Both the position numbers and the translations under genes were made by a program. A stretch of 64,000 bases of DNA from Aliiroseovarius sp. F47248L (lineage in GTDB: Bacteria; Pseudomonadota; Alphaproteobacteria; Rhodobacterales; Rhodobacteraceae), in contig NZ_JALKBF010000001.1 of the NCBI RefSeq assembly GCF_023016085.1, positions 1,178,001-1,242,000 on the forward strand, read 5' to 3'. This document shows, one piece after another, positions 24,210-45,833 of the stretch; positions within the stretch are counted from its first letter, which is position 1; each line of letters opens with the position of its first letter. The notes beneath the pieces are model-generated. The model did no database searches, had not been told where the DNA came from, and worked only from the letters and a program-made list of their open reading frames with translations.

Positions 24210-24250
24210 AGGGCCTTGTTTTGTTGGTGTTGTGAAAACTGGCGGTTTTT

Positions 24251-24270
24251 TGTAGCACTGAATGTAGCAC
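24251..24270 (+). repeat. Left-end TGTAGCAC pair, candidate integrase arm sites
   Basis: TGTAGCAC at 24251-24258 and again at 24263-24270, with starts 12 bp apart, about 60 bp inside the attL core. Three more copies lie at the right end (44714-44751). Direct repeats inside both ends are typical of arm-type binding sites of tyrosine integrases. Confidence 0.65.
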
Positions 24271-24317
24271 CAAGAATGACTCCGGATTTGAGCCCCGGGA
24301 ACTGAGCGCTTCGGGCC

Positions 24318-26194: not shown

Positions 26195-26222
26195 CTAATT
26201 TGTCTTTCGTTCGAGTAGGGGC

Positions 26223-27712: not shown

Positions 27713-27713
27713 C

Positions 27714-28421: not shown

Positions 28422-28454
28422 GGATTACCCTTTTTACTGGGAGGACGGGGGAGT

Positions 28455-29228: not shown

Positions 29229-29259
29229 TTGGTTTCCTCCCTTTGGATTTCTGTTTTCT

Positions 29260-30144: not shown

Positions 30145-30440
30145 ACCTTCTGAGTAGGGCAGTCTGGACTTTAGGTAACATTGAAAGTTTTCTGACTTTA
30201 CGTCAAGAATTTAAAAAAACTGTCATTTCCGAATGTCTGTATTGAGGCCGGAAGGCATTTGGGCCCTTAGCAATTTTTCCGCATCGGAAATGCCGTAAAT
30301 ACGGAGGCGGCTTCACACAGCTGGTAACCATGGTTTTCCCGGTGTTTCACTGGACGCATAGGCGAGATCCGGTTTCCCTAATTCCGAGCGATACGTTCTC
30401 AGGTGCGCGAAATTCCGAACGCGACACGGTGCAAGAAAAG
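30145..30440. promoter_or_regulatory. Control region of the RpiR/transport cassette
   Basis: Two inverted repeats stand out: AAAGT-N6-ACTTT at 30184-30199, about 40 bp before the RpiR start, and TTTCCG-CAT-CGGAAA at 30276-30290. Either could be an operator; the first is better placed for the regulator. Nothing else gene-like is seen. The region separates the amino-acid cassette from the PrtN-type genes of the plasmid-like part. Confidence 0.45.
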
Positions 30441-30713
30441 CTACCTTGGCGAGGTATCCGGTGAGTATTCTGCCATTTTGAACATTGCGGTTGCGCGCCT
30501 GTCTTGGATGTATCGCGCCAAGTGGGTTAAGGGGATGTTACTTGAGCGGAGGGCTTTCAAGCGTTCAACTGGGAGGTCGATCTGAAGCGACCCCTTGTTG
30601 ATCTTTCGCTCAAGAGCTTCCGGTTCAATTCCAAAATACTCCCTTGCCATCTGGCGGAAAGGGATCTCTTCCTGCCCATCATGGCGGGCCAATAGCAACA
30701 TCAGTGTCGTCAT
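30441..30713 (-). CDS. PrtN-like (pyocin-activator family) small regulator, second copy
   Basis: 90 residues. It keeps the order of the PrtN/pyocin-activator family: an N-terminal TTLMLLLARHDGQEEIPF, a helix-turn-helix-like 'MAREYFGIEPEALERKINKGSLQIDLPV' and 'IPLTHLARYIQDRRATAMF'. It lies 7 bp downstream of a second family member with which it shares the layout but only modest identity. In Pseudomonas PrtN activates pyocin genes. In mobile elements of alphaproteobacteria the role of these proteins is unknown. Confidence 0.75.
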   Translation of the reverse strand: MTTLMLLLARHDGQEEIPFRQMAREYFGIEPEALERKINKGSLQIDLPVERLKALRSSNIPLTHLARYIQDRRATAMFKMAEYSPDTSPR

Positions 30714-30720
30714 GGTCGTC

Positions 30721-30978
30721 TCAGTGTCCCATCAGCTTCAGTTCTTTCTCGGCGGCAGCACGGCGCGTGTCGATGTAATCCGCAAGGTCAGTCAGGTGAA
30801 CACCCTTTGCGCACTTCTGGCTGTCTTCCATGGTTACCAGCGGGAGAGGAATATCCCCCTTGCGGATCTTTTCATGGAATTTACCGACAGACAGGTTGAA
30901 CCAGTCTGCTGCAACCGCTTCGGAAGGGATGATCGGGCGGGCGTTATACATGGCCATCATCATGATTGCTGTGTTCAT
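30721..30978 (-). CDS. PrtN-like (pyocin-activator family) small regulator, first copy
   Basis: 85 residues and a closer match to the family: NTAIMMMAMYNARPIIPSEA, 'DWFNLSVGKFHEKIRKGDIPLPLV' and 'SQKCAKGVHLTDLADYIDTRRAAAEKEL'. The small size and helix-turn-helix-like centre suggest DNA binding, perhaps as an excision or transfer regulator of the element. It is followed after 7 bp by its shorter relative, so the pair is probably one transcript. Confidence 0.82.
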   Translation of the reverse strand: MNTAIMMMAMYNARPIIPSEAVAADWFNLSVGKFHEKIRKGDIPLPLVTMEDSQKCAKGVHLTDLADYIDTRRAAAEKELKLMGH

Positions 30979-31147
30979 TTAGTTTTCCTCGAATGCGACC
31001 GCGCGGAACACGGTTATTGTTGTTGCAAAAACTGGCACCTTGTGGCGACAGTTTTGAGAAAATGGCTCATTCGCAAAAACGCAGAAGAAATTTTTTGGAG
31101 TTCGAGAACCCATAAAACGAGGTGATCTCAAAACTTGGGGGCAGGGG

Positions 31148-31561
31148 TCATATGCCCGCCAGCAGTCTATCAGTTTGCCGTATCGCTGCGACCTTGTCTT
31201 CGAGCGCACGCTGAGCCGCGCGGAATTGGCGCCAACGCCACGCGAGATTGATCAGGTCGATGACTTTAGTATCGTAGATGTGCTCCGTCTCGATATCTGT
31301 AGCCATTGCACGATCACCGAGGCCCTCTCGAAATTCGTTGGTAAACCGACGGATCTGATCACCGAGCACTTCGATGCGATCGTCATCGATGTCCTGCAGT
31401 CCGCAACGGTCGGTCAGCTTTTGAAGCAGATCTAACGTCAGCTGTTTTGTGCTGCCCCGCGGAACCAAGCCCGCTGTGTGCCATTCTTGTGCCAGCAGGC
31501 GACCGTGGGTGATTGCATTGAGCGTCCGATCGTGGAGTTCGCGTTCCGTCTTTTCGTCCAT
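31148..31561 (-). CDS. Hypothetical protein
   Basis: 137 residues, helical and charged, with no signal peptide or membrane segment. No family is recognised. A strong TCCGGAGGACTCTTT ribosome-binding site before the ATG at 31561 and normal codon use support it as real. It lies between the PrtN pair and the primase/RepB-like gene on the same strand, so it belongs to the plasmid-like part of the element. Confidence 0.6.
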   Translation of the reverse strand: MDEKTERELHDRTLNAITHGRLLAQEWHTAGLVPRGSTKQLTLDLLQKLTDRCGLQDIDDDRIEVLGDQIRRFTNEFREGLGDRAMATDIETEHIYDTKVIDLINLAWRWRQFRAAQRALEDKVAAIRQTDRLLAGI

Positions 31562-32020
31562 AAAGAGTCCTCCGGAGGTGAGACCGCGTTATGTGGCCTC
31601 TCAAGACGCGGGCAGTGGGAGCTGCTGCCAGCGGGTGCGTTCTGGCGGCGAAAATGATGCCAGACTGGGGGGAGGCCAGCGTTTCCCGAGCCGGCCACTC
31701 ACCTCCGACCCGGGATCACTTCACTCACACAATGGAACCAACTTTGTTCGGTTCCCGAGGGGCTTGCGTTTCCGGTCGCGCCCTCACCAAGAGGGGCGTG
31801 ATCGAAACGGCAAGCATCTCGGCGGTTTTCATCCCCTCTTCGCGCATGGCTTTGCTCTCCGGCGGACAGGTCTATGGTGGTGCTGTGGCTGCGGGCTTGT
31901 CCGGAGGTGGGCCGGTGGGGCAGCGGGTGGCTGTTCACCGCTGTTGGGGTCATTTCTGCCCCCAGGCTGGAGCCAGGTGGGCGGGCTTTGCCCCTGAAGC
32001 GGGCACGGACCTGTCCGTGA
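31562..32020. other. 459-bp region without a convincing gene
   Basis: A plus frame and a minus frame cross this GC-rich stretch, but neither has a ribosome-binding site or recognisable content. On the minus strand a 35-codon frame starting near 31837 (MKTAEMLAVSITPLL) could be a small peptide. It lies downstream of the primase/RepB-like gene. Confidence 0.4.
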
Positions 32021-33322
32021 TCACGCCGCCAGGGGTTCGGGCAGCATTCCTACACGTTTCAGCTCGTAATACTTGGTCCGACCGATCCCGAATGCGGCCC
32101 AGGGCTTCATCCGCGAGGCGCTATTCGCCTCCAGATAGGCGTCGCGGGACTTGGCGCCATTTGCCGCGCGGCGCTGCCTTTCAGCCTCCGCCTTACGGCG
32201 CCGTCTTTCCTCTTCGGGGATCATCTGCTTCAGGCCGAGGTTGCGCGCGAGGTCCGGCGTGATGCCCAGACGCTCGGCCATCGTTGCGCCCTTATAGTGA
32301 TAGCGGCCGTCAGCCCACAAAGACGCGTTGGTGAAAAGCTTTGCCTTCTGGATGGCCTGCCTGACAATCGCATTCACTTCGATCCGCTCCAGCCCCGGTG
32401 TCGCGCCCTGCGCGGCACTCAAGATCTCTGCTTCCAGATCCATGACTTCGGGCAAATGGGTGAGGCAGGTCGCATGGAAGTGCAGCCAGGTGTTCCGCAG
32501 ACCCGTCGGGATCAATCCGCCATGCGCACCACGAAATGCCGCCAGATCATCGCGGATTAACCTGAACCTCTCTGTCTGTGTCAGCCCCCGTGGCATCGCG
32601 GCGTTTGCGCGGCGTTTCTTCGATTTGCGCGTCCTTCGCTCCTGCAATTCGGCGCGGGTGGGCCTGCCGGCGGCCCTGTAGATCAGATCCGCCAGATCGT
32701 CGAAACGGTGGCGTTCTGCGGTGCCGCCGCTGACTCGAACCTCCTTGTGCGACTTTTCGTTGAGTGTGCCCGGAATGCGGAAGACGCGTGCTGCATCCTT
32801 GCACGCCTTGTCTGCCCCGAACGTGGCCGCGACGTCGATCAGCGCGCCCATTGCGCCCTGCCAGCGCGGGAGCGCCGAGATCGGGATCGGCACGATCAGC
32901 CAGATCGCTGCAAGCCCGTGCCCCGTCTGTAGGAACACCGACGGCTGCGGCATTCCCGAGATCAGCAGATGGGCGGCGAATGCACTCTGAACTTCGGCGG
33001 GCGGCTTTCCACGCCATTGTGGCGCATGGAAATAGTCGAGATCGACATAAAGCGCGTTAAGCGATGCCAGCGACTTCAGCTTCCGCCCATACCAAAAGCG
33101 GTTCAATGTCAGGAAACTGGTCCGGTCGACGAAGTGCGGCATCTGAGCGATCAAGGGCGCTGCCTCGTAGGTATGGGTTTCGACATCGTCAGGCCCAAGC
33201 TTGCAAAGAACAGCGGCCTTCCCGCGTGACCCTTCCGGATGCAAAAGGTGGAAATACTCCTCGGCAGTTAGGTCGAAAATCTGGGCGGTCGGGGCGAATT
33301 CGCAGGGACTGGTGTGTTTCAT
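32021..33322 (-). CDS. RepB/primase-polymerase-like replication protein
   Basis: 433 residues. The first two thirds look like an archaeo-eukaryotic-type primase (RepB-like) domain: LYVDLDYF with D94 and D96 as metal ligands, 'FLQTGHGLAAIWLI' near residue 130 and 'DAARVFRIPGTLNEKSHKEV' near residue 195. A basic coiled region and a terminal helix-turn-helix-like 'AFGIGRTKYYELKRVGML' follow. Such proteins prime replication of mobilisable plasmids and elements. It is divergent from the KfrA-like gene, and the region between holds the iteron-like repeats. The upstream Shine-Dalgarno sequence is weak. Confidence 0.72.
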   Translation of the reverse strand: MKHTSPCEFAPTAQIFDLTAEEYFHLLHPEGSRGKAAVLCKLGPDDVETHTYEAAPLIAQMPHFVDRTSFLTLNRFWYGRKLKSLASLNALYVDLDYFHAPQWRGKPPAEVQSAFAAHLLISGMPQPSVFLQTGHGLAAIWLIVPIPISALPRWQGAMGALIDVAATFGADKACKDAARVFRIPGTLNEKSHKEVRVSGGTAERHRFDDLADLIYRAAGRPTRAELQERRTRKSKKRRANAAMPRGLTQTERFRLIRDDLAAFRGAHGGLIPTGLRNTWLHFHATCLTHLPEVMDLEAEILSAAQGATPGLERIEVNAIVRQAIQKAKLFTNASLWADGRYHYKGATMAERLGITPDLARNLGLKQMIPEEERRRRKAEAERQRRAANGAKSRDAYLEANSASRMKPWAAFGIGRTKYYELKRVGMLPEPLAA

Positions 33323-33435
33323 CCCAGGGAAATGGTTCCCGGACCACCATCACGAAAAAAACTGGATGATTTGAATATTGGCCCAAGTCGCGGTGCAAAA
33401 GGATGCCGCGTCATGCGTCGATAAAAGTCGCCTGG

Positions 33436-33530
33436 ACTTACCAACCTGAAAAACTTACCGACTTACTTACCTACAAACTTCCGACCTTCGGACTTGCCAA
33501 CCAACTTACCAACAAAGTGACATTCCAACC
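33436..33530. repeat. Iteron-like array (seven copies of ACTTACCNAC)
   Basis: Seven imperfect direct copies of ACTTACCAAC(C) start at 33436, 33453, 33465, 33477, 33492, 33504 and 33520. Copies 2-4 and 5-6 are spaced 12 bp apart. The array lies in an AT-rich 306-bp gap between the divergent primase/RepB-like and KfrA-like genes. This fits a replication origin or a KfrA-type operator. Confidence 0.65.
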
Positions 33531-33628
33531 TTTTCTTTTGGCACGCAAAAAACTTAGGAAGTTTGTTTTTTGGCTTTTGCCATTGAACCCACGTCTCTCC
33601 TGCAATCGCAAAACAAGGAGTAACAACG

Positions 33629-34255
33629 ATGCGCACACCCATTCATTCTGACGAAGATATCATCGCAAAAGGCACCAGTCTGACGGCGCAGCTTGGCCGG
33701 GAGATCTCGGCCACCGATCTGTTTAAAGCGCTTGGCAGCAAGGGCAAATTCTCGCGGGTTCGCGACCTGTGGGAGGAGCACATGGCAAGCCGCGAAGAAG
33801 AACAACTTGCCGAATTTCCGCTGCCAGACAGCACCCAGGCGCTGATCCAAACCGCCGTATCAGCACTGGAGCAAAGCATGGTGTCGATGCTGCGCGGCGA
33901 AATTTCACGGCTCACTGACCAGAACATCCGCCATCTGGCACTGCGCGAGCGTGATTTTGCCATGCTCGAGTCCGAGCATGCGAACACGGTCAAGAAGCTG
34001 AACACGCAGATCACTGATCTGACGCAATGCCTCGATGATCTGTCTGCGGCGGCCGAGATCAGCGAGACCGAGGGCCTCGACGGCGAACCCGACAAACCTG
34101 CGGCGATAAAACTGGCTCGGGCAAAGGGCGCCCAGGGGGCGGCTCATAGGTCTCCAAATCGACCGGTGAAGAGAACTCTGGCGCCTCGCAAGGCGGGTCG
34201 ACCTCTTCGCTCAAAGCCCACGCCAGAGCCGACGCAAAAGCAGCCCCCGTCTTGA
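33629..34255 (+). CDS. KfrA-like DNA-binding coiled-coil protein
   Basis: 208 residues. The first 55 residues (IHSDEDIIAKGTSLTAQL..., 'ALGSKGKFSRVRDLWEEHMASR') match the KfrA N-terminal DNA-binding layout. A helical, probably coiled-coil stretch follows to about residue 150, then a basic proline-rich tail. KfrA proteins bind repeated operators on plasmids and help maintenance or segregation. AAGGAGTAACAACG precedes the start. The last 197 bp overlap the 3' end of the convergent relaxase gene on the other strand. The iteron-like array is 100 bp upstream. Confidence 0.7.
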   Translation: MRTPIHSDEDIIAKGTSLTAQLGREISATDLFKALGSKGKFSRVRDLWEEHMASREEEQLAEFPLPDSTQALIQTAVSALEQSMVSMLRGEISRLTDQNIRHLALRERDFAMLESEHANTVKKLNTQITDLTQCLDDLSAAAEISETEGLDGEPDKPAAIKLARAKGAQGAAHRSPNRPVKRTLAPRKAGRPLRSKPTPEPTQKQPPS

Positions 34256-35276
34256 GGCTGTCGAATTGCGTTGCCTCTGACAGCGCGGTCTCAGCCTCAT
34301 CCACAGATTGAACCTTTCGAAGCCGGTGCTTTTCAGCATCGGCTTTATCCTTGCGGGCCGCTTCCCGCTCCAGTGCGTGCACTTCTGCGGTCAAACGGCC
34401 TTTCTCACGCTCCAGCGCCCTCAGACTGAGCCAAGACGCCCAGACAGATTCGTTATGCCTCCTCGTCTCGGCACGTCGCTTTCCAGCGCTGCTGGTATCT
34501 ACGCCTTTTTCTTCAAGGCGCCGTGATCGTTCAGCCCGGCGTGGACCCAGATGGTCCTGGGCAACCAATCCCTCCGGAGCGTCTCCCGCTTTCGCCATGG
34601 TCTCGTAGGAGCGCAGATCGACACGTGCGGACGACCCGATGCGCTTTAGCGCTGCGTTGGTGCGTTTTTCCCACTCCTGCCTGATCCTCAGGATTTCTTT
34701 CGGCCCCGTTTTCCTATCATCCAGTATCCTGGTCTTTGCTCCGAAGGTGCCGGTCAGCGGACACACCTCGCGCGTCGTCATCAGAATGTGGGCGTGGAAA
34801 TTGAGGTTGGTTAGCACTGGGTCGAAAAGCGATGCGGGATAATCTGGCTGATCCGTGGCGAATTTGCTGGCCTTGTGAAACGCTTCCATCTTCCGATCCA
34901 GAAACCTCGGCGCATGGACGTCAGCCTGGACCGCAACGCCGTATTCATCACGAAGCCAGAGGCCAAATCCTCGAATAAGTCTGACTTGATCGGCAAGCGG
35001 TAGCTCAGCCGGCAGCGAAGGGCGCAGTTCCCTGATAACCCGGGCATTGCCACGAGTCTCGGCCACTTCGGCGAGGTTCCAGAGCGATGCGGCGTTGCCG
35101 GTCCAGTTGATGAGCTCGTGAGACAATAGCCCACCGGTCTTGCTCGAGCGGAATCTCTTCCCCAGCCGCTCGTCACGGTAGGACGCGCGCGCAGTGTAGG
35201 CGGCAGATTTGACCGCGCTTCGGCCATCGGCGCGGGAATGAATGACAACTTCGAGGCGGCTTGCAGGATGTATCAT
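34059..35276 (-). CDS. MobA/MobL-family (MOBQ) relaxase
   Basis: 405 residues. The N-terminal relaxase domain has 'SRADGRSAVKSAAYTARASYRD', with a candidate catalytic tyrosine at Y27 or Y33, and the metal-binding motif NFHAHIL (H161, H163). The C-terminal half is helical and charged. MOBQ relaxases nick oriT and pilot the strand through a type IV channel. The gene starts 60 bp from the hairpin of the candidate oriT. No primase or helicase domain is fused, unlike RSF1010 MobA or Ti-plasmid TraA. The end overlaps the KfrA-like gene tail-to-tail by 197 bp. Confidence 0.85.
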   Translation of the reverse strand: MIHPASRLEVVIHSRADGRSAVKSAAYTARASYRDERLGKRFRSSKTGGLLSHELINWTGNAASLWNLAEVAETRGNARVIRELRPSLPAELPLADQVRLIRGFGLWLRDEYGVAVQADVHAPRFLDRKMEAFHKASKFATDQPDYPASLFDPVLTNLNFHAHILMTTREVCPLTGTFGAKTRILDDRKTGPKEILRIRQEWEKRTNAALKRIGSSARVDLRSYETMAKAGDAPEGLVAQDHLGPRRAERSRRLEEKGVDTSSAGKRRAETRRHNESVWASWLSLRALEREKGRLTAEVHALEREAARKDKADAEKHRLRKVQSVDEAETALSEATQFDSLKTGAAFASALAWALSEEVDPPCEAPEFSSPVDLETYEPPPGRPLPEPVLSPQVCRVRRRGPRSR

Positions 35277-35337
35277 GAATGGGATGTCGGGCCCGAATCC
35301 GACTTCCGCTCCTCAGCCCCGCCGGCCAGGCGCGCAG

Positions 35338-35384
35338 GCAAACTTCAGTTTGCGTAACTGCGCGCACGCGTGCGTATACGCACG
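35338..35384. other. Candidate oriT (MOBQ type) with adjacent palindrome
   Basis: A hairpin GCAAAC-TTCA-GTTTGC (35338-35353) is followed directly by GTAACTGCGCGC (35354-35365). The layout resembles MOBQ origins, in which an inverted repeat precedes a nic region like GTAAGTGCGCCC. Next to it lies a perfect 16-bp palindrome CGTGCGTATACGCACG (35369-35384). The site lies between the divergent relaxase and TraD-like genes, the usual place for an oriT. Confidence 0.75.
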
Positions 35385-35480
35385 TAGGCGCGCGAGGCGA
35401 ACCAAAGTTTTTTGGTTTTCTACGAGCGATGAGCTTTTCGAAGCACCACTTCCCATTCAGACACGATTGGAGGAAAGACT

Positions 35481-35762
35481 ATGTCATACCAGCAGCAAGT
35501 TGCGAAAAGTTCCCAGGGGATCGCCCAAGCAAAGGCTCGAGCGAAGGATCAGATTGCGCAGAGCAGGAAAAAAATACGCAGGGCTGAAACACGCCGAAAG
35601 ATTCTATATGGGATCGCGGTTCTTAGTTTTCTCGATGATCTGGAGCCCCAGCAAAAGGAGCGGTTGCTTGCAAAACTACATGGCAAAATCACCCATGACA
35701 GAGATCGCGAATTTCTCGGGCTGCCGGTGCAATCTCACAATAAGGGTGTTCACGCTGAGTAG
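35481..35762 (+). CDS. TraD/MobC-like mobilisation accessory protein
   Basis: 93 residues. The segment RRAETRRKILYGIAVLSFLDDL (residues 33-54) followed by 'LLAKLHG' matches the short TraD-type proteins encoded opposite MOBQ relaxases. Residues 1-32 are basic and helical. These accessory proteins help relaxosome assembly at oriT. GAGGAAAGACT precedes the ATG. The position, divergent from the relaxase with the candidate oriT between, supports the assignment; the sequence match alone is moderate. Confidence 0.7.
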   Translation: MSYQQQVAKSSQGIAQAKARAKDQIAQSRKKIRRAETRRKILYGIAVLSFLDDLEPQQKERLLAKLHGKITHDRDREFLGLPVQSHNKGVHAE

Positions 35763-35823
35763 CATGAAAGGGTTTACGCTACACAGGCTACCCAGCGTGA
35801 CGAGATGTGGAATTGGCTAAGCG

Positions 35824-36369
35824 TTATACCATTGAGCGCAAACTGGATAGATTAGCAGCACAGCCCTTTGGGTTTTGCCGCTCTGCTGCGTGAATTAAAT
35901 CAAGAGCGCGTTCTTGGGCCGCAGTAGTGATTTCCTCTGAGAAATGTATGGTTGAGGTCGCAATGATAGCAAACGCAAGTATTCTCAACAGATCCTCTGG
36001 GGTAGCGCCGAGGTCAGAGGCGATCTCAGGTGCAAGGAGAAAGACCGACGCTGCGACGCCTGCTCTTTGGGATTCAACGTCGCCAATTGCTTCGCTGATC
36101 ACATGTTGCGCGATTTCCGATTTAACCTCGCGAAACGTTCGAGATGCCAGCGCGTCTTCCAAGTATATTTGCTCGCAGAGGAAGGTGTCAGCCAAATTGG
36201 CGTAGCCATTGGTAGTGTTGCTCACCAATACCGAACCGGTGATCAGGCCGTTTAGAAAATCTTCTAAGCGAGGGATGCCGCGGTTGCGAGAGTTGGCACG
36301 CAGTGAGGCGGCGAAATAGATACCGGTGACTATGAGATTACGGCGACGAACGGCTGAGATGACTGACAT
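35824..36369 (-). CDS. Hypothetical protein
   Basis: 181 residues, mostly helical. A hydrophobic stretch (LLRILAFAIIATSTI) lies near residues 125-140. There is no signal peptide and no family is recognised. AAAGGATAATTT gives a good ribosome-binding site before the start at 36369. It lies between the mobilisation genes and the PemK/MazF-like gene, both on the element. Confidence 0.6.
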   Translation of the reverse strand: MSVISAVRRRNLIVTGIYFAASLRANSRNRGIPRLEDFLNGLITGSVLVSNTTNGYANLADTFLCEQIYLEDALASRTFREVKSEIAQHVISEAIGDVESQRAGVAASVFLLAPEIASDLGATPEDLLRILAFAIIATSTIHFSEEITTAAQERALDLIHAAERQNPKGCAANLSSLRSMV

Positions 36370-36456
36370 AAATTATCCTTTGATGGGGGGAGGCCCTGCG
36401 GCCCCGCATGTGAAAGGCGGGGTTGCGCAGTAGGCATTAGACTTGGTTTGTTGGCT

Positions 36457-36975
36457 TCAGACTGCAGATGTGAACTCTGGTCGAGATCTTTGTCGGCCAA
36501 ACAGTCCGCGGTTAGAAAAGGGGCGCTTAGCAGTCACCTTCTTATTGGGATGGATCCCTTGGCGTTCGTCTTGTGCTTCGCGAAACGGAAGCTCTTTGTA
36601 GCACTTGCTAATAAACGGAGAGGCATAGGCGGGGAGCCCACCAATCCGAGAGGTTCCGGCGCATGGCTTGATGCAGAACCGAGGATCATCTTTTCGAACG
36701 CGGATCCTGCGTTTGAATATGAAGCGAGTTGGCTTTTTCAGGTTGAATTCAGAAAGCATCTCTGGGCTGGAAGCCGTCATTTCATGGATATTTACGTCTC
36801 TGGGATCAAAGCTGCTTGTCCCGTAGGCAATCACGACTTCATCTGTCTCGTGATCTTCATGCAGAACAAAGCAAGGTCTGTTCTTCAACGCTTCGCTGCT
36901 TTTGTAGGGAAATTGAAAGGTGACAACATCACCAACGGTGATCGAACGCTGCGCGTCCGGCACAAGTGCCATCAT
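36457..36975 (-). CDS. PemK/MazF-like protein with extended C-terminus
   Basis: 172 residues. The stretch SITVGDVVTFQFPYKSS (residues 10-26) followed by 'NRPCFVLHED' and 'VVIAYGTS' resembles the MazF/PemK barrel start. The second half is basic and unlike known toxins, and the total is longer than the usual 110 residues. No antitoxin gene is seen beside it. It may be a MazF-fold protein of another function. The start is one of two adjacent ATG codons (36975 or 36972) behind GGAGCCCATC; the longer frame to 37035 lacks a ribosome-binding site. Confidence 0.5.
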   Translation of the reverse strand: MMALVPDAQRSITVGDVVTFQFPYKSSEALKNRPCFVLHEDHETDEVVIAYGTSSFDPRDVNIHEMTASSPEMLSEFNLKKPTRFIFKRRIRVRKDDPRFCIKPCAGTSRIGGLPAYASPFISKCYKELPFREAQDERQGIHPNKKVTAKRPFSNRGLFGRQRSRPEFTSAV

Positions 36976-37046
36976 GATGGGCTCCGATTTTGAGGAAGGA
37001 AATCGACGCCCTTGGGTTACCCCCCTTGCTCTCAAGGGATGTAACT

Positions 37047-37119
37047 ACTCCCTTCGAGTTTAGGTGAATGCCAGAACGTCATGACGAACGCTCTGGATTC
37101 ACTAAACTCTTAAGGGAGT
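37047..37119. repeat. Long imperfect inverted repeat
   Basis: Arm 37047-37075 (starts ACTCCCTTCGAGTTTAGG) is complementary, with few mismatches and two one-base bulges, to arm 37092-37119 (ends CTCTTAAGGGAGT). The 16-bp centre contains CGTCATGACG. A second, shorter pairing CTC-AAGGGA / TCCCTT-GAG overlaps it at 37031-37057. It lies in a 396-bp gene-free gap between the PemK/MazF-like gene and the methyltransferase. It may be a regulatory hairpin, terminator or remnant of a small transposable element. Confidence 0.7.
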
Positions 37120-37371
37120 TAAGAAGGCTAACGCCTTAGATGGAATTTTCGGCGAGCTCGTCAAGATGCTGCGGTAGAAAAAAGTTCGCCTGTTGCCTTT
37201 GGGTGTGCTTGTTCGGTGGGGCGTTTTCGATGCGTAGATGCCCGAATTTGTTGGAAAAACAGGGGCGCAGCGCACATCAATAGGTTGCATGGCCAGCAAG
37301 CTGCCAATACAAATCTTTTAGAGGGTTTTGTTTGGCGCTCGTTGTTTTCCTTTTGATTACAGGATCCTTTA

Positions 37372-40083
37372 ATGAACCCGACTGAGATTTTTGAAGCCCT
37401 TGAGAAGATCTCGTCCGAGCCATTCGATCCACTGGAATTCCCTTTTGCCTTTGCCGAGGCGACTGACGTGGCCCAGGCCGCAATTGCCAAGCTGCGAAAT
37501 GGCACGACCAACAAGTCAGACCAGCCCAGTGGTGTGCTGGTCAACAAGAAGTTCCACTATGCACCCGCCTTGGACGGCATGGTTGATGTCACACTTGAGG
37601 CCCTTCGGAACTCTAAAAAGACGACCACTGCCAAACCAGCTGTCCTGATCGCCACGGATGGCGAGATGGTCGCGGCAGAGCAGCGGATGAGCGGAGAGAC
37701 GCTTCATTGCCGTTTTGATGAGATCGGCGACAACTTTGGGTTCTTCCTGCCCGCCGCGGGCAAAGAGCGTTATGACGCGGTGCAGGAAAACCCTGTCGAT
37801 GTCAAAGCGACCGGCAAACTGGCCCGGCTCTATGACGCGCTGGCCAAAGCCAACCCCGACTGGGCCAGTGATGAGCGCCGTCACGAGATGAACCAGCTGA
37901 TGATGCGGCTGATCTTCTGCATGTTTGCCGAAGACGTGGGTATCTTCCCGGACAATCAGTTCAGTCAAATCCTGTTCAGCCACTCGGGCAACAAGGGCGA
38001 GGAAGCGCGCGAGGTGATCATCGCAGCCTTCACCGCCATGAACCGCCCCAAGAACCAGCGCGGCGATCTGCCAGGCTGGGCGGGGGAGCTGGAATACGTC
38101 AACGGTGGCTTGTTCGCCGGGGCGATTGATGCGCCCAAGTTCGATGTGCCGTCCTATCGCTATCTGCGCGATGCCTGCGATCTGGATTGGCGCGAGATCA
38201 ACCCTGACATCTTTGGCTCGATGATCCAGTCAGTCGCCGACCCCAAACAGCGCTCTGAGCTGGGGATGCACTATACCTCGGTGCCCAACATCATGAAGGT
38301 GATCGGGCCGCTGTTTTTGGATGATCTGGACGCGGATATCGAGAAAGCATGGGATAAACCTGCCGCGCTGAAACGGGTGCTGACACGGCTTGAGGGGATC
38401 CGCGTGTTTGATCCGGCCTGTGGGTCGGGCAACTTTCTGGTCGTGTCCTATCGTCAATTGCGCGAACGTGAGATGCGCATTCTGGAGCGGTTGGAAGAAC
38501 TGACGGGCGAGGGCACGAAAGAGATGTTTTCGGCCATCCAAATCGCCCATTTCCACGGGATCGAGATCACGGATTTCGCCGCCGAGACCGCCAAGTTGGC
38601 GCTGTTCATCGCCGAGTATCAGGCCAACGCGGTGTTTCGCGAGGTGTTTGGCCAAGGCCCTGCAAGCCTGCCACTGCGCGAAAGTGCGCATATCGTCTGT
38701 GACAACGCCCTGAGGGTGGATTGGGACGAGGTCTGCCCGCCACCCGGTGAGGGGGAAGAGGTGTTTATCGCGGGCAATCCGCCGTTTTTGGGGTCGACCT
38801 ATCAAAGCAAAGAGCAAAAGGCCGATCTGGCCTTTGTGTTCAAGGAGCATGTGAAGAGTTTTGCTGCGTTTGATTTTGTCGCTGCATGGTTCTTCAAAGC
38901 GTCACGTTACATTCGGGGAAGGGCGGCACGATCCGCTCTGGTTTCGACCAATTCGATTTGTCAGGGCTACTCAGTTGCCGCTTTGTGGCCGCATGTTCTT
39001 GAGCCTGATTTGGAAATTGGGTTTGCCCACAAGGATTTCAAATGGCGGAACAACGCATCAGCAAATGCAGCAGTAATTTGCTCGATTATTGGATTGCGAA
39101 ATGTGACGAGGGTTCCGAAACGCTTGTTTGCAAATGGCGTTGAAAGTCTGGTGGACAATATCAATGCCTTTTTGGTGCATGCCCCCTCTGTTTCGGTGGT
39201 CGGGACGCGCGATGGATTGTTCGGGTTACCTTCTATGGACTATGGCAATAAGCCGGTCGAAGGAGGGTTTCTTCTCATGACCGAAGAAGAGAAATCCACT
39301 TTGTTGCACGCTGAGCCACGTGTTTCGCCCTTCATACGCCCCTTTATGGGCTCCAAAGAGGTGGTAAATGGTTTCCGTCGCTATTGCCTGTGGATCACTG
39401 CGGATACATTGACTGAGGCGATGTCTATTCCTGCGATCTCAGAAAGAGTTCAAAGAGTTGAGGAATTTCGAGCGGAAAGCACTGACAAGTATGTTCGTGA
39501 AAAACTGCTCCCTCTTTCTTACCGGTTCAAGCAAGTATTTGAAGCCAATAGCCATTCTATCCTCATCCCAAGCGTGACTTCTGAACGCCGTCCGTATCTT
39601 CCAGTAGATCGGGTAGATGCGAGTGTGATCTCATCAAATCTCAACATGGCCCTCTACGACGCCCCCGACTGGTGCCTCGCGCTGATCGCTTCGCGCATCC
39701 ACCTCGTCTGGATCGCCACTGTTTGTGGAAGGCTTGAAAGCCGTTTCCGTTATTCGAACACCCTTGGCTGGAACACCTTTCCGGTGCCGAATTTCTCGGA
39801 CGATCAGCTTGAAGCGCTCAATGCTTCGGCCCGCAAGATCCTCAAAACCCGTTACAGCCATTATCCGGCCACCATTGCCGAATTGTATGACCCCGACAAA
39901 ATGCCCGACGATCTGCGAGCGGTGCATCGGGAAAACGATGAGCTGCTGGAAACCATGTATATCGGGCGGCCGTTCCGCAACGATACCGAACGGCTGGAGC
40001 ATTTATTCAAGCTCTACGCTGCCAAGATTAAACAGATTGAAAAAGATGCTGCGAAATCCAAGCGCGGCAAGAGGGGCAAATAA
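37372..40083 (+). CDS. MmeI-like class I DNA methyltransferase lacking the nuclease part
   Basis: 903 residues. Residues 1-150 align in style with the N-terminal and spacer parts of MmeI-type proteins but no D-ExK nuclease motif is visible. 'RSELGMHYTSVPNIMKVI' (residues 294-311) is motif X. DPACGSG (347-353) is motif I for S-adenosylmethionine, and NPPF (469-472) is the catalytic motif IV of N6-adenine methylases. A target-recognition region follows to about residue 800. As part of a three-gene operon it probably marks self DNA. The helicase ATG follows the stop codon without a gap. ACAGGATCCTTTA precedes the start. Confidence 0.85.
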   Translation: MNPTEIFEALEKISSEPFDPLEFPFAFAEATDVAQAAIAKLRNGTTNKSDQPSGVLVNKKFHYAPALDGMVDVTLEALRNSKKTTTAKPAVLIATDGEMVAAEQRMSGETLHCRFDEIGDNFGFFLPAAGKERYDAVQENPVDVKATGKLARLYDALAKANPDWASDERRHEMNQLMMRLIFCMFAEDVGIFPDNQFSQILFSHSGNKGEEAREVIIAAFTAMNRPKNQRGDLPGWAGELEYVNGGLFAGAIDAPKFDVPSYRYLRDACDLDWREINPDIFGSMIQSVADPKQRSELGMHYTSVPNIMKVIGPLFLDDLDADIEKAWDKPAALKRVLTRLEGIRVFDPACGSGNFLVVSYRQLREREMRILERLEELTGEGTKEMFSAIQIAHFHGIEITDFAAETAKLALFIAEYQANAVFREVFGQGPASLPLRESAHIVCDNALRVDWDEVCPPPGEGEEVFIAGNPPFLGSTYQSKEQKADLAFVFKEHVKSFAAFDFVAAWFFKASRYIRGRAARSALVSTNSICQGYSVAALWPHVLEPDLEIGFAHKDFKWRNNASANAAVICSIIGLRNVTRVPKRLFANGVESLVDNINAFLVHAPSVSVVGTRDGLFGLPSMDYGNKPVEGGFLLMTEEEKSTLLHAEPRVSPFIRPFMGSKEVVNGFRRYCLWITADTLTEAMSIPAISERVQRVEEFRAESTDKYVREKLLPLSYRFKQVFEANSHSILIPSVTSERRPYLPVDRVDASVISSNLNMALYDAPDWCLALIASRIHLVWIATVCGRLESRFRYSNTLGWNTFPVPNFSDDQLEALNASARKILKTRYSHYPATIAELYDPDKMPDDLRAVHRENDELLETMYIGRPFRNDTERLEHLFKLYAAKIKQIEKDAAKSKRGKRGK

Positions 40084-42159
40084 ATGGCTCAGATGTTGAA
40101 CGTCCAATACGGGCACAAGAAATCAGCGACCAACCCCATGGGCATGCGCGAAATGCAGGCGCGGGCCTATGCGGCGCGGGCGGCACAGTTCCTGCTGCTC
40201 AAGGCGCCACCAGCGGCGGGCAAGAGCCGTGCGCTGATGTTCATCGCGCTGGACAAGCTGCGCCACCAAGCGCGCGAGAAGGTGATCGTTTGCGTGCCCG
40301 AAACCTCAATCGGTGGATCGTTTCGCACCACGGATCTGACCAGCTATGGATTTGAGGCGGATTGGGAAGTTGAGGACAAATGGAACCTCTGTCTGACGGG
40401 CGAGGATGCGTCAGACCAAAAGGTGAAGGCCTTTGTGGAGTTCATGGGGTCGGATGCCGAAGTCTTGGTCTGCACCCATGCGACTTTCCGCTTTGCCTAT
40501 GAAAAAGTGGTCGAGGCGCAGGGGCCAGAGGCGTTTGATGACTGCTTCATCGCGATTGATGAATTCCACCATGTGTCCGCGTCTGACAACAACCGTTTGG
40601 GCGTGATCCTGCGCGCCCTGGTAACGCGCGAGAAGTGTCATTTGATGGCGATGACCGGCAGCTATTTCCGTGGCGACGCTGACCCTGTGCTGAGGCCTGA
40701 GGATGAGGCCAAGTTCACCACGATCACCTACAGCTATTATGAGCAGCTGGAAGGTTACGAGCACCTCAAGGCGTTGGGTGTGAACTATCAGTTCTATAAA
40801 GGTAATTACGTCAACGGCTTGGCGGATGTTCTGGATGTATCCCAAAAGACGATCATCCATATCCCGCATCGTGGGTCTTCGGAGGCATTTGACGACAAGT
40901 TCAACGAAGTCGGCAAGATCATGGATCTGATCGGCACCCATAAAGGGCGCGAAGAGTCGACGGGGTTTGATCTAGTTGAGACGGCTGATGGACGGCTGCT
41001 CAAAATCGCAGATCTGGTCGATGATGGGCCGGGGCGGGATATCGTCAAATCCGCGCTGTCGCGTGAGGTAAAAGGGCCTGACGGCAAACGGGATGATGAG
41101 GCAGACCGTGCGAAGGTCGATATCATCATCGCGCTCGGGATGGCCAAAGAGGGATTTGACTGGGTTTGGTGCGAGCATGCACTAACCATCGGCTATCGGT
41201 CTTCCTTGACGGAAATCGTGCAAATCATCGGCCGCGCGACCCGCGACGCCCCGGGCAAGCCACGTGCGGTCTTCACCAACCTTGTGGCAGAGCCGGGTGT
41301 TGAAACCGGCGTGGTCACAGATGCAGTGAATGACATGCTCAAGGCGATTTCAGGATCGCTGCTGATGGAGCAAGTGCTGGCACCCAATTTCAAGTTCTAC
41401 CGGCGCGAAGACGGTGACATTCGGGAGCCTGTGGTGGTGGACGGGCAGGGGAATGTCATGATCGGCATCAAGGGGCTCGTAGAGCCGCCCACAGAACGTT
41501 CCAAGGACATTTGTGAACAAGACATGCATGACCTGATGGCTGCGGCTTGTCAGGCGATGGACAAGCGCGTTCTGTCACCGGAAACGGCGCCCGAGGTCGC
41601 GACCCAGATGATTTTGACCGACATCATCGAGAAGCGATACGAAACGCTTGATGACGAAGAGGCCGAGAGCGTTCGTCAACATCTGGCTGCACACATGAAC
41701 ATTCTGACCCTGGCCAGAGATGAACAGCAAAAGGGCATGGCTGAAGCTGGATCTGTTTTTGAAGGTAAACCCGCGCCTGCTGATGAGGGGGAGGATGATG
41801 ACGATCTTGCAGGTGCGCCGAATACCCTTCTGCAAATGGTAAAGAAGTTCATCAATGTGCGAGATATCGACGTAGAACTGATAGACAGTGTGAACGCGTT
41901 TCAGGAGCGGTTTGAAGTTGCCTCCAAATCGCTGGATTCAAAGCTTCTGGCACATGTGCAATCCGCAATGGTCGCAATGCGTGTGGACATGTCCGAAGAC
42001 GAGGCACGAACGCTTTGGCCGCGTATCAAGGCATTTCGGGCATCCGAGGGGAGAGAACCCAATCCCAACTCGCCTGATGCGCTTGAAAAGCGAATGGCAG
42101 AAGCGCTGTCATGGCTAAAAGCTCAGAAGGCCAAACGCATGCGTGAGGGAACGCTGTAA
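40084..42159 (+). CDS. SF2 (DEAD/DEAH-type) helicase of the methylase-helicase-nuclease unit
   Basis: 691 residues. Walker A is A41-PPAAGKS48, Walker B with Q-motif-less start is DEFHH (159-163), motif III-like is 'MTGSYFRG' and motif VI is 'QIIGRATRD'. Two RecA-like domains span about residues 30-420. The C-terminal 270 residues are helical and unassigned, with an acidic stretch (EGEDDDDLAG). It is related in layout to the helicase subunits of restriction systems but has no nuclease motif of its own. It begins immediately after the methyltransferase stop and overlaps the next gene by one base. Confidence 0.87.
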   Translation: MAQMLNVQYGHKKSATNPMGMREMQARAYAARAAQFLLLKAPPAAGKSRALMFIALDKLRHQAREKVIVCVPETSIGGSFRTTDLTSYGFEADWEVEDKWNLCLTGEDASDQKVKAFVEFMGSDAEVLVCTHATFRFAYEKVVEAQGPEAFDDCFIAIDEFHHVSASDNNRLGVILRALVTREKCHLMAMTGSYFRGDADPVLRPEDEAKFTTITYSYYEQLEGYEHLKALGVNYQFYKGNYVNGLADVLDVSQKTIIHIPHRGSSEAFDDKFNEVGKIMDLIGTHKGREESTGFDLVETADGRLLKIADLVDDGPGRDIVKSALSREVKGPDGKRDDEADRAKVDIIIALGMAKEGFDWVWCEHALTIGYRSSLTEIVQIIGRATRDAPGKPRAVFTNLVAEPGVETGVVTDAVNDMLKAISGSLLMEQVLAPNFKFYRREDGDIREPVVVDGQGNVMIGIKGLVEPPTERSKDICEQDMHDLMAAACQAMDKRVLSPETAPEVATQMILTDIIEKRYETLDDEEAESVRQHLAAHMNILTLARDEQQKGMAEAGSVFEGKPAPADEGEDDDDLAGAPNTLLQMVKKFINVRDIDVELIDSVNAFQERFEVASKSLDSKLLAHVQSAMVAMRVDMSEDEARTLWPRIKAFRASEGREPNPNSPDALEKRMAEALSWLKAQKAKRMREGTL

Positions 42160-43358
42160 TGCCTCGCCCCACGCTTGATGACATCTTTACTGAGCCAGAT
42201 GAATTTGGGTTGCTAGCGGTAAAACCGCGTGCTGCGGGCGCCCAGAATACTAATCGGGGATTGGCCGTATTGGGCGAGGTGAGCACATTCTTTGAACGAA
42301 CCGGCCATTTACCCCACCCAGATGCGGCTGATCATGAGGAGATGCGGCTCGGCACGATTTGGGAGAAGCTAAGGCAGAACCCAACAGATGAGATGTTAGC
42401 CTCTGATCGCTTGGGATTGCTTGTGGCACAGGAGGTTCCGCAAACAAATTGGCGCGAAGAGCCTCAGGAAGAGCAGATTCCAGACAGTCTTGATGACATT
42501 TTTGACGATGATGCGTTGGAACTAGATGAAGATGCTGTAACGCTTCGCCATGTAACACCATCTGCCGAGCGCCACTTGCCGGATCATCGTGCGGAATTCG
42601 TTCCGTGCACAGATTTCGATAGATATGCTGACAAGTTTGAAGAGGTGCAGTCTGCCTTAGAAGCGGGTGAGCGCAAAGCGCGGCCCGTGAAGAAATGGGC
42701 AGTGATTGAGCCAGTTGAAGGTGATTTTTTCATTCGGAATGGTTTGCTGGCGATGATCGCAGAGAAATCGGAGATGACAGCGCGCGGTGGGTCTCGAGAT
42801 CATCGCTTACGGGTCATTTTCTCTAATGGCACGGAAAGCGACCCACTCATGTCCTCTTTCCGCAAGTCGTTGAACGATGACAAAGCCTCAAGGTTTATCG
42901 AAAAAGTTGGCCTCGGGCCGTTGGATGCTGAATGGGAAGCGGATCGAGTTGGTGTCTCAGGCACGATCTATGTTGCTCGATCCTTGTCTGAGGATCCCGC
43001 GATCAAAGATCAAAGAGATATCCTCCACAAGATTGGGGTCACCAGCCAAGACGTTCGTAGGCGTGTTGCAGATGCGCGGAATGATCCTACGTTTCTCTTG
43101 GCCCCAGTGGAGGTCGTCGCCACCTTTGATCTGGAAAACCTCCCACGCGAAAAAGTGGAGCACCTTCTTCATAAGTTCTTTGAAAGAGCCAGACCGTCAG
43201 AACTCTTCATTCTGGACCGGTTCGGTAAGAAGGTGCACCCAAAAGAGTGGTTCTATGTGCTCCCAGAGCATGTGAGCCAAGCTGCCAAATTTTTGCTCAA
43301 TGGCGAACTTCACAAGTTCGCTTATGATGTGAAACAGCAGGCTATCGTAAAAAAATAG
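42159..43358 (+). CDS. GIY-YIG nuclease-domain protein (Mug113/T5orf172-like C-terminus)
   Basis: 399 residues. The first 260 residues are unassigned and contain two LDDIF motifs (residues 6-10 and 111-115). The C-terminal domain has G268-T-I-Y, K291-I-G, arginines 300-302, and the E334-H-L-L-H segment followed by KFFERAR and EWFYV. This is the order of the Mug113-type GIY-YIG fold with E334 as the likely metal ligand. The protein is the only nuclease candidate in the three-gene operon, so it is predicted to cut unmodified DNA. The ATG shares its A with the helicase TAA stop. Confidence 0.85.
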   Translation: MPRPTLDDIFTEPDEFGLLAVKPRAAGAQNTNRGLAVLGEVSTFFERTGHLPHPDAADHEEMRLGTIWEKLRQNPTDEMLASDRLGLLVAQEVPQTNWREEPQEEQIPDSLDDIFDDDALELDEDAVTLRHVTPSAERHLPDHRAEFVPCTDFDRYADKFEEVQSALEAGERKARPVKKWAVIEPVEGDFFIRNGLLAMIAEKSEMTARGGSRDHRLRVIFSNGTESDPLMSSFRKSLNDDKASRFIEKVGLGPLDAEWEADRVGVSGTIYVARSLSEDPAIKDQRDILHKIGVTSQDVRRRVADARNDPTFLLAPVEVVATFDLENLPREKVEHLLHKFFERARPSELFILDRFGKKVHPKEWFYVLPEHVSQAAKFLLNGELHKFAYDVKQQAIVKK

Positions 43359-43371
43359 CCTGCTCATGAGC

Positions 43372-44526
43372 CTATTTCACGGGCAACGGGGACGTTACAA
43401 TTGGCCACCATTCCCAGCCTTCATATTTATCCCCGCGCTCTTTGATATGAGTGTATCTCTTGATGCTGCCCCAATCTTCATGCCCGGATACTTCAGCAAC
43501 TTCATGTATTTTCAGTCCGATCTCGAATAGCCGAGAAATCCCTTCGTGGCGCAGGTCATGAAACTTTAGGTTTTCGATTCCGAGTAGTTTGCAGGCTTCG
43601 GTAAATAGCCGAGTGATTGTATCCTCATGGTAAGGGAAAATGCGCTCATCGATGCGGGGCATGGAATCGATGATCGCCATTGCTTCTTGTCTGATAGTAA
43701 GAACCTTGTCGTTACCTTCTGTTTTTCGGGGGTGCTTCAGATTGCGCACTGTGAGTTCACCATACTCGCCGTCGTAATCATCCCACAGCTGGGACAGGAT
43801 CGAACCACGGCGGTGCACCTTAAAGATCGCCGCAGGAACAATCTTATGCATTGGCACGCAACGAGGGTTTTCCTGATATCGTTTCGCGAAGTGATCCATC
43901 AGTTTGTTGAGCTCTGTGAGCGAGGGGCGACGGTCCCTTTTTGCCGATTTTGTCACGATTTTCTGGTGCCTTAAGGTGCGCATTGCTTGTTCATATTCAG
44001 CCAAGGGCATTTCAACACCGGCAATTGGCCCTCCAAACCTGATAACAGCCCCGAGAGTTACCAGGTAACCATTCACAGTTTGCGGCTTTCGGGGTTTGAA
44101 GCTGTAGTGTTCAGGGGTGTCCAGCTCGGGATCGGTAGGTCGCGCCTGAACACCATTCAGGAGGTCTGTCGCGAGGCGAACAAAATCTTCTGCTGCCAAA
44201 GTTTCCATTTCAGCTTCACCGAAAGGAAGACGCTGAAAATAGCTGAGCATTTGGGATTTTGACGATCCGAAACCGTCAGGAGAGGATTCGATGTAGTCTT
44301 GGACACATGCCGACACATCCTTTCGTCTCTTTGCATTGACCGCTCGATCGAGCGCTCCGGGCTTTTTGAGTGCTCTTTCCTGGTTCTTGAGCCAGTTTTC
44401 TGCGGCTCTTTGGGACGGGAATGTCTCCACCAAATTGAGGATGACCTTGCCTTTTTTTTTCTTGCGTAATTGCGCTGTATAGCTTGGCTTGCCGTTTTTC
44501 TTAAAGCGCTCGGTAACAGTTCCCAT
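43372..44526 (-). CDS. int: Tyrosine-type site-specific integrase (dusA-targeting)
   Basis: 384 residues. A basic N-terminal arm-binding part (TERFKKNGKPSYTAQLRKKKKGK) is followed by a core-binding domain and the catalytic domain. Visible catalytic residues: R in HRRGSILSQLWDD, H-D-L-R (HxxR box), GHEDWGS and the terminal RYTH tyrosine. The start at 44526 (MGTVTERF) follows GAAAGGAACTCTC. It lies at the right end of the element, reading inward, 275 bp from dusA. The position next to dusA and the displaced dusA start at the other end make it the integrase of this element. Confidence 0.92.
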   Translation of the reverse strand: MGTVTERFKKNGKPSYTAQLRKKKKGKVILNLVETFPSQRAAENWLKNQERALKKPGALDRAVNAKRRKDVSACVQDYIESSPDGFGSSKSQMLSYFQRLPFGEAEMETLAAEDFVRLATDLLNGVQARPTDPELDTPEHYSFKPRKPQTVNGYLVTLGAVIRFGGPIAGVEMPLAEYEQAMRTLRHQKIVTKSAKRDRRPSLTELNKLMDHFAKRYQENPRCVPMHKIVPAAIFKVHRRGSILSQLWDDYDGEYGELTVRNLKHPRKTEGNDKVLTIRQEAMAIIDSMPRIDERIFPYHEDTITRLFTEACKLLGIENLKFHDLRHEGISRLFEIGLKIHEVAEVSGHEDWGSIKRYTHIKERGDKYEGWEWWPIVTSPLPVK

Positions 44527-44713
44527 GAGAGTTCCTTTCAGTCTCGGGTTTTTCATGGCCGGGACATCGGTTCGACTGTATTTTTCAGAAGCAGGTTTGT
44601 GTAAGTTTGAGTCCTAAATCGGAGGCGATCGGGGGGAACTGGGCCAAATCGACGGCCGGGCCGTTGTCTGATTGCCCAAGAACAGTGAGGAGGTGGAAAC
44701 CGGCCCCGAAAAA

Positions 44714-44751
44714 GTGCTACACGGCGGTTTCGGTGCTACATCCTGTAGCAC
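44714..44751. repeat. Right-end TGTAGCAC cluster, candidate integrase arm sites
   Basis: GTGCTACA at 44714-44721 and 44733-44740 (minus orientation, 19 bp apart) and TGTAGCAC at 44744-44751 (plus). The last two form an inverted pair GGTGCTACA-TCC-TGTAGCACC. The same octamer is present twice at the left end. Confidence 0.7.
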
Positions 44752-44801
44752 CGCATCCAAAAACGGGGCTGAACGGGGCCGAAACGAGGAAAACGTGAAA
44801 A

Positions 44802-45833
44802 ATGGTCGATCGAAAAAACCAAGAAAAATCAGGGTTTTCCGATGTTCAGCGGGCTGCGCGTTTGAGTGTGGCGCCGATGATGGATTGGTCGGATCGCCAT
44901 TGCCGGTACTTCCACCGATTGATGACGCGCCGCGCGCTACTGTACACCGAAATGGTAACCGCGCCCGCGCTGGTACGGGGGGGAGCATTGCATCTTTTGG
45001 ACTTCAATTCTGAAGAGCATCCCGTGGCCGTGCAGCTTGGAGGCTCTGACCCGAAAGAACTGGCCGAAGCGACCAAAATTTGCGTCGCGCGCGGCTATGA
45101 CGAAATAAACCTGAATGTGGGGTGTCCGTCGGACCGGGTTCAATCGGGCACGTTTGGGGCTGTGCTTATGCGGGATGCGCCGTTGGTGGCTGCGTGTATG
45201 TCTGTTATGAAAGACGCTTCGCAAGATATTGAAGTAACAGTTAAATGCCGGATTGGTGTGGATGAGCAAAGCCCCGATGAAGTGCTGCCATACTTTCTTG
45301 AAACCGTCGCCGCCGCCGGTGTGTCGAGGTTCACAATTCATGCCCGCAAAGCGTGGCTTCAAGGGTTAAGCCCGAAAGAAAACCGGGACATCCCGCCGCT
45401 GGACTACCCTTTAGTGCATCGTATGAAAGCAGCGTTTCCGGCATTGCATTTGTCAATCAATGGCGGGATCACAACATTGGACGAGGCGCGCGCACAACTG
45501 GATGTCATGGACGGGGTGATGATCGGGCGGGCGGCCTATCACGATCCGGGCTCGGTTCTGCTGGGGGTGGATCAGGCGATCTTTGGTGACACCACGCGAC
45601 CCCGCAGCGCGCATGAGGTGGTCGAGGCGATGTATCCTTATATCGAGACGCAGCTGGCCAAGGGCGTGCGTCTGCATTCAATTACGCGCCATATGCTGGG
45701 TATTTTTACGGGACGCCCCGGAGCGCGCAAATGGCGACGCATCTTGTCCGAAGGCGCGTCGCGAGACGGGGCAGGGGTTGCGTTGCTGGCCGAGGCGCTG
45801 TCACATGTGCCAGACCACGTTCCCGCAAGCTGA
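44802..45833 (+). CDS. dusA: tRNA-dihydrouridine synthase A, 5' end rebuilt by the element
   Basis: 343 residues. The FMN-binding TIM barrel begins APMMDWSDRHCRYF, and the catalytic cysteine is in NVGCPSDRVQSGTFGAVLM. 'IHARKAWLQGLSPKENR' and 'SINGGI' are DusA-type. It reduces uridines in the D-loop of tRNA. Residues 1-25 come from element sequence: MVDRKNQEKSGFSDVQ replaces the native MSTNNDITH, while AARLSxAPMMDW is kept. GAGGAAAACGTGAAAA is the element-supplied ribosome-binding site. Expression of dusA now depends on a promoter inside the element. Confidence 0.95.
   Translation: MVDRKNQEKSGFSDVQRAARLSVAPMMDWSDRHCRYFHRLMTRRALLYTEMVTAPALVRGGALHLLDFNSEEHPVAVQLGGSDPKELAEATKICVARGYDEINLNVGCPSDRVQSGTFGAVLMRDAPLVAACMSVMKDASQDIEVTVKCRIGVDEQSPDEVLPYFLETVAAAGVSRFTIHARKAWLQGLSPKENRDIPPLDYPLVHRMKAAFPALHLSINGGITTLDEARAQLDVMDGVMIGRAAYHDPGSVLLGVDQAIFGDTTRPRSAHEVVEAMYPYIETQLAKGVRLHSITRHMLGIFTGRPGARKWRRILSEGASRDGAGVALLAEALSHVPDHVPAS
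44877..44888 (+). repeat. attR core (direct repeat with 24183-24194)
   Basis: ATGATGGATTGG inside dusA, coding for MMDW. It marks the right junction of the integrative element; sequence to the right is chromosomal dusA. Confidence 0.85.

Follow-up and report, generated by a model that had tools for sequence, protein, structure and literature searches.

What kind of system is encoded by three tightly packed genes for a methylase, a helicase and a GIY-YIG protein in Aliiroseovarius sp. F47248L, and is that kind new? The genes lie in a 64,000 nucleotide stretch of contig NZ_JALKBF010000001.1, hereafter the window, whose own numbering is used throughout. An original prediction, made from the letters and open reading frames (ORFs) of the window, had read them as a restriction-like defence unit and as a candidate new type. 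The analysis described here indicates that the trio is fairly likely to be a split restriction-modification system of the OspHL35III/DnmA-YeeB-YeeC kind that arose from a Type IIL enzyme and works in the manner of Type I or Type I single-polypeptide (ISP) enzymes. The three genes are the following.

37372..40083, plus strand, MmeI-like N6-adenine DNA methylase with a target recognition domain (TRD), DnmA/YeeA-like, 903 amino acids (Pfam and a match to MmeI, 5hr4)
40084..42159, plus strand, superfamily 2 (SF2) helicase/translocase, YeeB-like, 691 amino acids (Pfam, alignment and structure model)
42159..43358, plus strand, GIY-YIG (T5orf172/MUG113) protein, YeeC-like, 399 amino acids (Pfam, alignment and model)

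The methylase stop codon and the helicase ATG directly adjoin (40083/40084), and the A at 42159 is common to the TAA stop codon of the helicase and the ATG of the GIY-YIG gene. The three ORFs of the original prediction were reproduced with their coordinates, their abutment and their one-base overlap, and the motifs it had named were located at methylase residues 347 (DPACGSG) and 469 (NPPF), at helicase residue 159 (DEFHH) and at E334 of the third protein. A PPAAGKS motif is found at helicase residue 42. Between 37000 and 43600, two promoter-like sites were found against 3.6 expected, and eight terminator-like sites against 6.7 expected.

The grouping of the three genes is far beyond chance. 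A fetch with the helicase only yielded 126 confirmed loci, and among the best 80 of these, 76 encode the methylase, helicase and GIY-YIG protein in this order on one strand, which is the co-occurrence that the original prediction of a unit called for. The four exceptions consist of two loci cut by contig ends (L050 and L066) and two whose match to the helicase is confined to residues 60-501 (L056) or 136-687 (L059). Profiles of the helicase (E ≤ 1e-30) and of the GIY-YIG protein (E ≤ 1e-10) were also searched against 249 genomes from the phylum, where they match 15 and 16 genomes respectively, with all 15 in common and the additional GIY-YIG match being a 138 amino acid frame with a stop. The 15 shared genomes include that of the window, and since 13 of the 15 have proteins inside the profiles, this search shows only that neither gene occurs alone and intact elsewhere in the 249 genomes. 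Homologues that usually lie apart, which would have spoken against a unit, were not seen.

The methylase contains all five MmeI Pfam modules in order (MmeI_N 82 bits, MmeI_hel 77, MmeI_Mtase 335, MmeI_TRD 245 and MmeI_C 61), and its sole solved relative by sequence is MmeI (5hr4, E 2.7e-152). In PADLOC-DB 2.0 it matches the Type IIG model with 887 bits. The catalytic residues of MmeI are given as D70, E80 and K82 in PMC4833311. These positions were followed in an alignment of 105 MmeI-like proteins, composed of the window methylase, 94 whose locus also has a helicase match and 10 whose locus has none. All three residues are intact in eight of the 10 proteins without a helicase match. The methylases of L120 and L127 were considered as orphans and rejected, as whole-genome searches placed helicase and GIY-YIG genes approximately 7 kb downstream of both. 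None of the 97 methylases of the window's lineage (94 distinct proteins, as three identical pairs are included) retains the catalytic E or the catalytic K, and D-E-K is intact in eight of the eight without adjoining partners. Gaps occupy the E and K columns in 95 of the 97, the window methylase among them, and the remaining two have a gap in the K column, with Q or W in the E column. The aligned D column holds D in 83 of the 97, so only E and K tell nuclease-bearing from nuclease-dead methylases. Pattern matches to the nuclease motif in 12 of the 94 partnered methylases were rejected, as none is at the aligned position and no E-K is present in the 97.

Seven of the eight genomes with an intact MmeI-type enzyme contain no helicase of the trio family anywhere, and the eighth (G142) contains one that belongs to a separate trio. 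In the methylase tree, the window protein is separated from its nearest relative by 0.19 substitutions per site and from the nearest nuclease-bearing enzyme by 2.7. Support for the lineage of 97 is 0.589 after rerooting and the eight intact enzymes are not printed as a clade; monophyly of the lineage is not leaned on here. Judged from the aligned columns, the methylase of the trio has lost its nuclease. The earlier statement that it carries no nuclease motif holds in a strict sense, with the N-terminal domain kept and the stretch bearing the catalytic E-x-K gone.

The helicase matches the Pfam families DEAD and ResIII, with Helicase_C below the cut-off. Alignment of 35 helicases identified invariant residues in the Walker A motif at 42-48 (except residue 45), in DEFHH at 159-163, and at Q380, R384 and R387. 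The structure model, with a predicted local distance difference test (pLDDT) score of 75, resembles many SF2 enzymes, including MrfA and the HsdR of EcoR124I and LlaBIII. The latter two appear at ranks 29 and 50 of the fold list, with many SF2 proteins higher and neither singled out.

The third protein matches Pfam MUG113 and T5orf172, families that we take to be of GIY-YIG type, and both match all 55 of the 55 GIY-YIG proteins aligned. Its predicted architecture consists of a helical N-terminus, an SH3/Tudor-like middle and a C-terminal GIY-YIG domain, modelled with a pLDDT of 85. Residues G268, Y271, K291, G293, R302, E334, E363 and W364 are invariant among the 55, and the YIG half of the motif reads KIG. 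The separate GIY-YIG nuclease of the original prediction has its own gene downstream of the helicase and, by alignment, intact active-site residues, from which cutting would be expected. The middle domain (residues 175-250, window 42681-42908) is predicted to be SH3/Tudor-like and exhibits weak matches to elongation factor P (EF-P) domain I and CarD as well as several nearly invariant residues.

Identity was compared part by part in 4847 trio pairs, excluding those with helicases above 99.5% identity; the pairs lack independence, and the set includes a few loci twice. In the 126 pairs with helicases 90-99.5% identical, mean identity is 0.56 (0.28 to 1.0) in the TRD and 0.76 in the methyltransferase (MTase) domain, against 0.93 in the dead N-terminal domain, 0.93 in the spacer, 0.94 in the C-terminal domain and 0.87 in the GIY-YIG protein. 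This contrast between the TRD and the rest fades in more distant pairs. A segment of the window methylase exhibits the same behaviour against the sister island L146 of genome G308.

38828..39642, plus strand, putative specificity cassette, about residues 486-757 (end of the MTase domain and most of the TRD), differing from L146

The window and L146 are approximately 92% identical in DNA on either side of 38828-39642, and no blastn alignment is obtained within it. The segment looks like a specificity cassette swapped by recombination. Because the N- and C-terminal parts of the methylase both follow the helicase in identity, we infer that these parts may contact the helicase.

An architecture of this kind has already been described, and the candidate new type of the original prediction does not stand. 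According to the legend of S4 Fig C in Blow et al. 2016 (PMC4752239), OspHL35III has the same three-protein architecture, with "several hundred members in REBASE". As that legend describes it, OspHL35III is composed of an MmeI-like MTase/TRD without the N-terminal nuclease motif, a separate translocase and a separate GIY-YIG nuclease, all common to the window trio, and a comparison by description revealed no difference. The DnmA(YeeA)-YeeB-YeeC set of Bacillus subtilis, compared by its published description, has members of these three families arranged as in the window; its DnmA makes GACGm6AG, where m6A is N6-methyladenine (Nye 2020, PMC7261158), and the synteny is reported as conserved (PMC9973331). 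Both papers credit Morgan 2009 with noticing this set. According to Nye 2020, that work listed DnmA with MmeI homologues that have no nuclease motif and that neighbour genes resembling yeeB and yeeC, and Nye 2020 cites it for a suggested Type I-like system. The window encodes what characterises this kind, namely an MTase/TRD without PD-ExK followed by separate SF2 translocase and GIY-YIG genes on the same strand. A literature search, made without subscription journals and most preprints and not aimed at genes embedded in the trio, found no paper solving the mechanism of the trio or giving it another name. What endures of the original reading, its novelty aside, is the conserved unit of nuclease-less methylase, helicase and a separately encoded GIY-YIG protein whose active site is intact.

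Two other classes are related to the trio. Type IIL MmeI has all five Pfam modules in common with the window methylase and is of comparable length (919 and 903 amino acids), but in the window the nuclease E and K are gone, helicase and GIY-YIG genes are attached, and the N-terminal PD-ExK active site of Type IIL enzymes is absent. Type I and ISP enzymes, such as the HsdR of EcoR124I and LlaBIII, feature an SF2 motor and a variable TRD as the window trio does, and by analogy a single recognition module may serve both methylation and restriction in the window as well. The nuclease of the window differs in being a separate GIY-YIG protein, and the Pfam scan of the three proteins did not reveal the HsdR with fused nuclease and separate HsdS of Type I.

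As a split restriction-modification system, the trio would operate in several steps. The methylase would place m6A on one strand of a short asymmetric site wherever it occurs in the cell's own DNA, as is published for DnmA. In the residue code of MmeI (PMC4833311), E806 and R808 specify C:G at position 6; the window methylase has E789 and R791 at the corresponding places, and its m6A is predicted to be followed by C. On unmarked DNA, the methylase would recruit the helicase through its dead N-terminal nuclease domain and its C-terminus, the helicase would translocate by ATP hydrolysis, and the GIY-YIG protein, held by the helicase, would nick or cut the DNA, as its conserved active site suggests. 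The helicase may in this way couple recognition to cleavage, as the original prediction had proposed. With a one-strand methylase, replication leaves behind sites that carry no methylation at all, and these could escape attack through a translocation or collision step. Safe restriction by a one-strand methylase with a detached nuclease is a question that the window operon makes testable.

Several published results weigh against this scheme. Deletion of dnmA in B. subtilis is reported to leave plasmid transformation unchanged (PMC7261158), and deletion of yeeB or yeeC to leave infection by three phages unchanged (2023 mBio, PMC9973331). The latter paper also reports that phages do not avoid the DnmA motif and cites Vibrio crassostreae homologues as protecting against some phage subclades and not others. 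The available parts of both papers contain no report of cleavage by the YeeB/YeeC pair. The helicase model, with the score given above, is of moderate confidence. The absence of a restriction phenotype in B. subtilis, together with the effect of m6A on promoters in that species (PMC7261158), would suit a restriction relic in which the methylase is an orphan regulator and restriction by the helicase and GIY-YIG protein has ceased, a proposal made for B. subtilis DnmA. We regard this as unlikely for the window, where the frames are open, the helicase and GIY-YIG protein have the catalytic residues that do not vary among the aligned relatives, and the specificity part varies between close relatives, which is more expected of an active system. 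The B. subtilis YeeB and YeeC are reported to be shorter by stretches present in the Vibrio proteins, with no restriction (PMC7261158, PMC9973331), whereas the window proteins are full length compared with the relatives aligned. The trio is real and conserved and is probably an active restriction system, of a kind already known.

That phage genomes do not avoid the DnmA motif would also be compatible with exclusion of the type performed by bacteriophage exclusion (BREX) or defence island system associated with restriction-modification (DISARM) systems, in which methylation marks self and the helicase and GIY-YIG protein block phage DNA without site-tied cutting. The methylase does match DrmMI models (best 110 bits against the 887 of Type IIG) and, weakly, PglX models, and the helicase weakly matches PbeA (E 1.6e-5); for both the helicase and the GIY-YIG protein, PADLOC-DB 2.0 provided weak matches only and has no close model. 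The five PADLOC-scanned ORFs and the Pfam-scanned neighbours include no companion gene of BREX or DISARM, and the conserved nuclease active site argues for cutting, which leaves exclusion improbable beside the split restriction-modification system. The trio crosses phyla and its best-studied member, that of B. subtilis, looks inactive. The window trio is the better test object because it has intact catalytic residues, a clearly mobile element and an apparently recently exchanged specificity part.

The junction between the methylase and helicase genes is occupied by other genes, many of them defence-like, in a number of related loci. Of the 98 loci in which all three genes are present (95 helicases are distinct), 25 have 250 nucleotides or more between methylase and helicase. 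Loci with extra genes at this junction include L006, L010, L012, L013, L016, L023, L047, L052 and L062, as well as L050, which has no GIY-YIG gene. A helicase-GIY-YIG gap of at least 250 nucleotides occurs in one of the 98 (L045), in which the helicase frame itself is broken. Gap ORFs of at least 100 amino acids in 26 loci, L050 included, form 19 groups, with some ORFs being doubtful. The largest group is Abi_2-like and spans 10 related loci (E 7.7e-5, just under the Pfam cut-off; PADLOC PD-T4-5 E 2.7e-12). Twenty embedded ORFs were picked for a PADLOC scan, eight of them from the 7-kb inserts of L196 and L197, both outside the 98 loci. Models match 13 of the 20 (7 of 10 at E ≤ 0.01 and 6 of 10 at E ≤ 0.001), and among 10 large window ORFs outside the element that carries the trio, used as a control, none matches at E ≤ 0.001. 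The embedded matches comprise Abi-like, RhuM, DarT, DarG, GmrSD-like and PDDEXK_4 proteins, a reverse transcriptase (L196), DUF1016 (L078 and L197) and others. Given broad PADLOC candidate families, hand-picked ORFs and related loci, this pattern of embedded defence genes is a lead and provides no rate. The window operon has no insert between methylase and helicase. A tentative proposal, to which we give somewhat less than even weight, is that the dead nuclease domain serves as a docking platform for an obligate helicase/GIY-YIG pair with only the specificity cassette exchanged, and that the methylase-helicase junction is a preferred loading bay for defence genes. If true, the trio would be a chassis for composite defence islands.

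The trio operon is cargo of a mobile element integrated in dusA, with the following features.

24195..44867, no strand, integrated mobile element of approximately 20.7 kb in the 5' end of dusA (direct dusA join in 11 of 20 genus genomes; ends approximate)
44802..45833, plus strand, dusA (tRNA-dihydrouridine synthase), the insertion target (genus comparison)
43372..44556, minus strand, tyrosine integrase of the element (ORF and Pfam)
34059..35276, minus strand, MobA/MobL relaxase of the element (domain matches)

The empty site is seen in 11 of the 20 other genus genomes, where dusA joins directly to sequence ending at approximately 24194 in the window; a direct join was not obtained in eight of the 20. 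The end repeats GCCCCCATGATGGATTGG (24177-24194) and GCGCCGATGATGGATTGG (44871-44888) are 18 nucleotides long with 16 of 18 bases identical. The integrase, a neighbour that the original prediction had pointed out, adjoins the GIY-YIG gene, and the element also encodes a RepB-like primase, ATP-binding cassette (ABC) transporter genes and an enolase-family enzyme. The L146 trio adjoins the same dusA gene in G308, and the region beside dusA is common to G308 and the window (87.9% over 4 kb). Among the 20 other genus genomes, four have a full-length helicase gene and a fifth has a broken remnant, a patchy occurrence as for mobile cargo. At L117 (G312:C4:1279258-1279467), in the same genus, a short helicase remnant with a stop marks an apparent loss of the system.

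Outside the genus, the trio is annotated on plasmids of Aeromonas and Rhodococcus. On a Ligilactobacillus plasmid the methylase is in two pieces, and on a Proteus plasmid a truncated methylase lies beside IS26 and the annotation splits the GIY-YIG gene into two pieces. Of 72,556 plasmid records, 263 contain a match to the helicase; in 153 the match covers 80% or more of the helicase, and 118 of the 263 are predicted to be conjugative; only two partial matches were found among 50,697 phage records. These counts and the carriage of the trio by the dusA element could point to competition between mobile elements, and not phage defence, as the main selected role. We consider this very unlikely as a separate explanation, and it is compatible with a restriction mechanism, as the target alone differs.

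Just upstream of the methylase, on the minus strand at 36457-37035, there is a weak PemK/MazF-like match (E 0.007, under the cut-off) for which no partner was identified. The left part of the element (24318-30144) looks metabolic, with GNAT, mandelate racemase/enolase family and ABC transporter genes and an RpiR-type regulator. Such cargo is unusual beside a restriction system.

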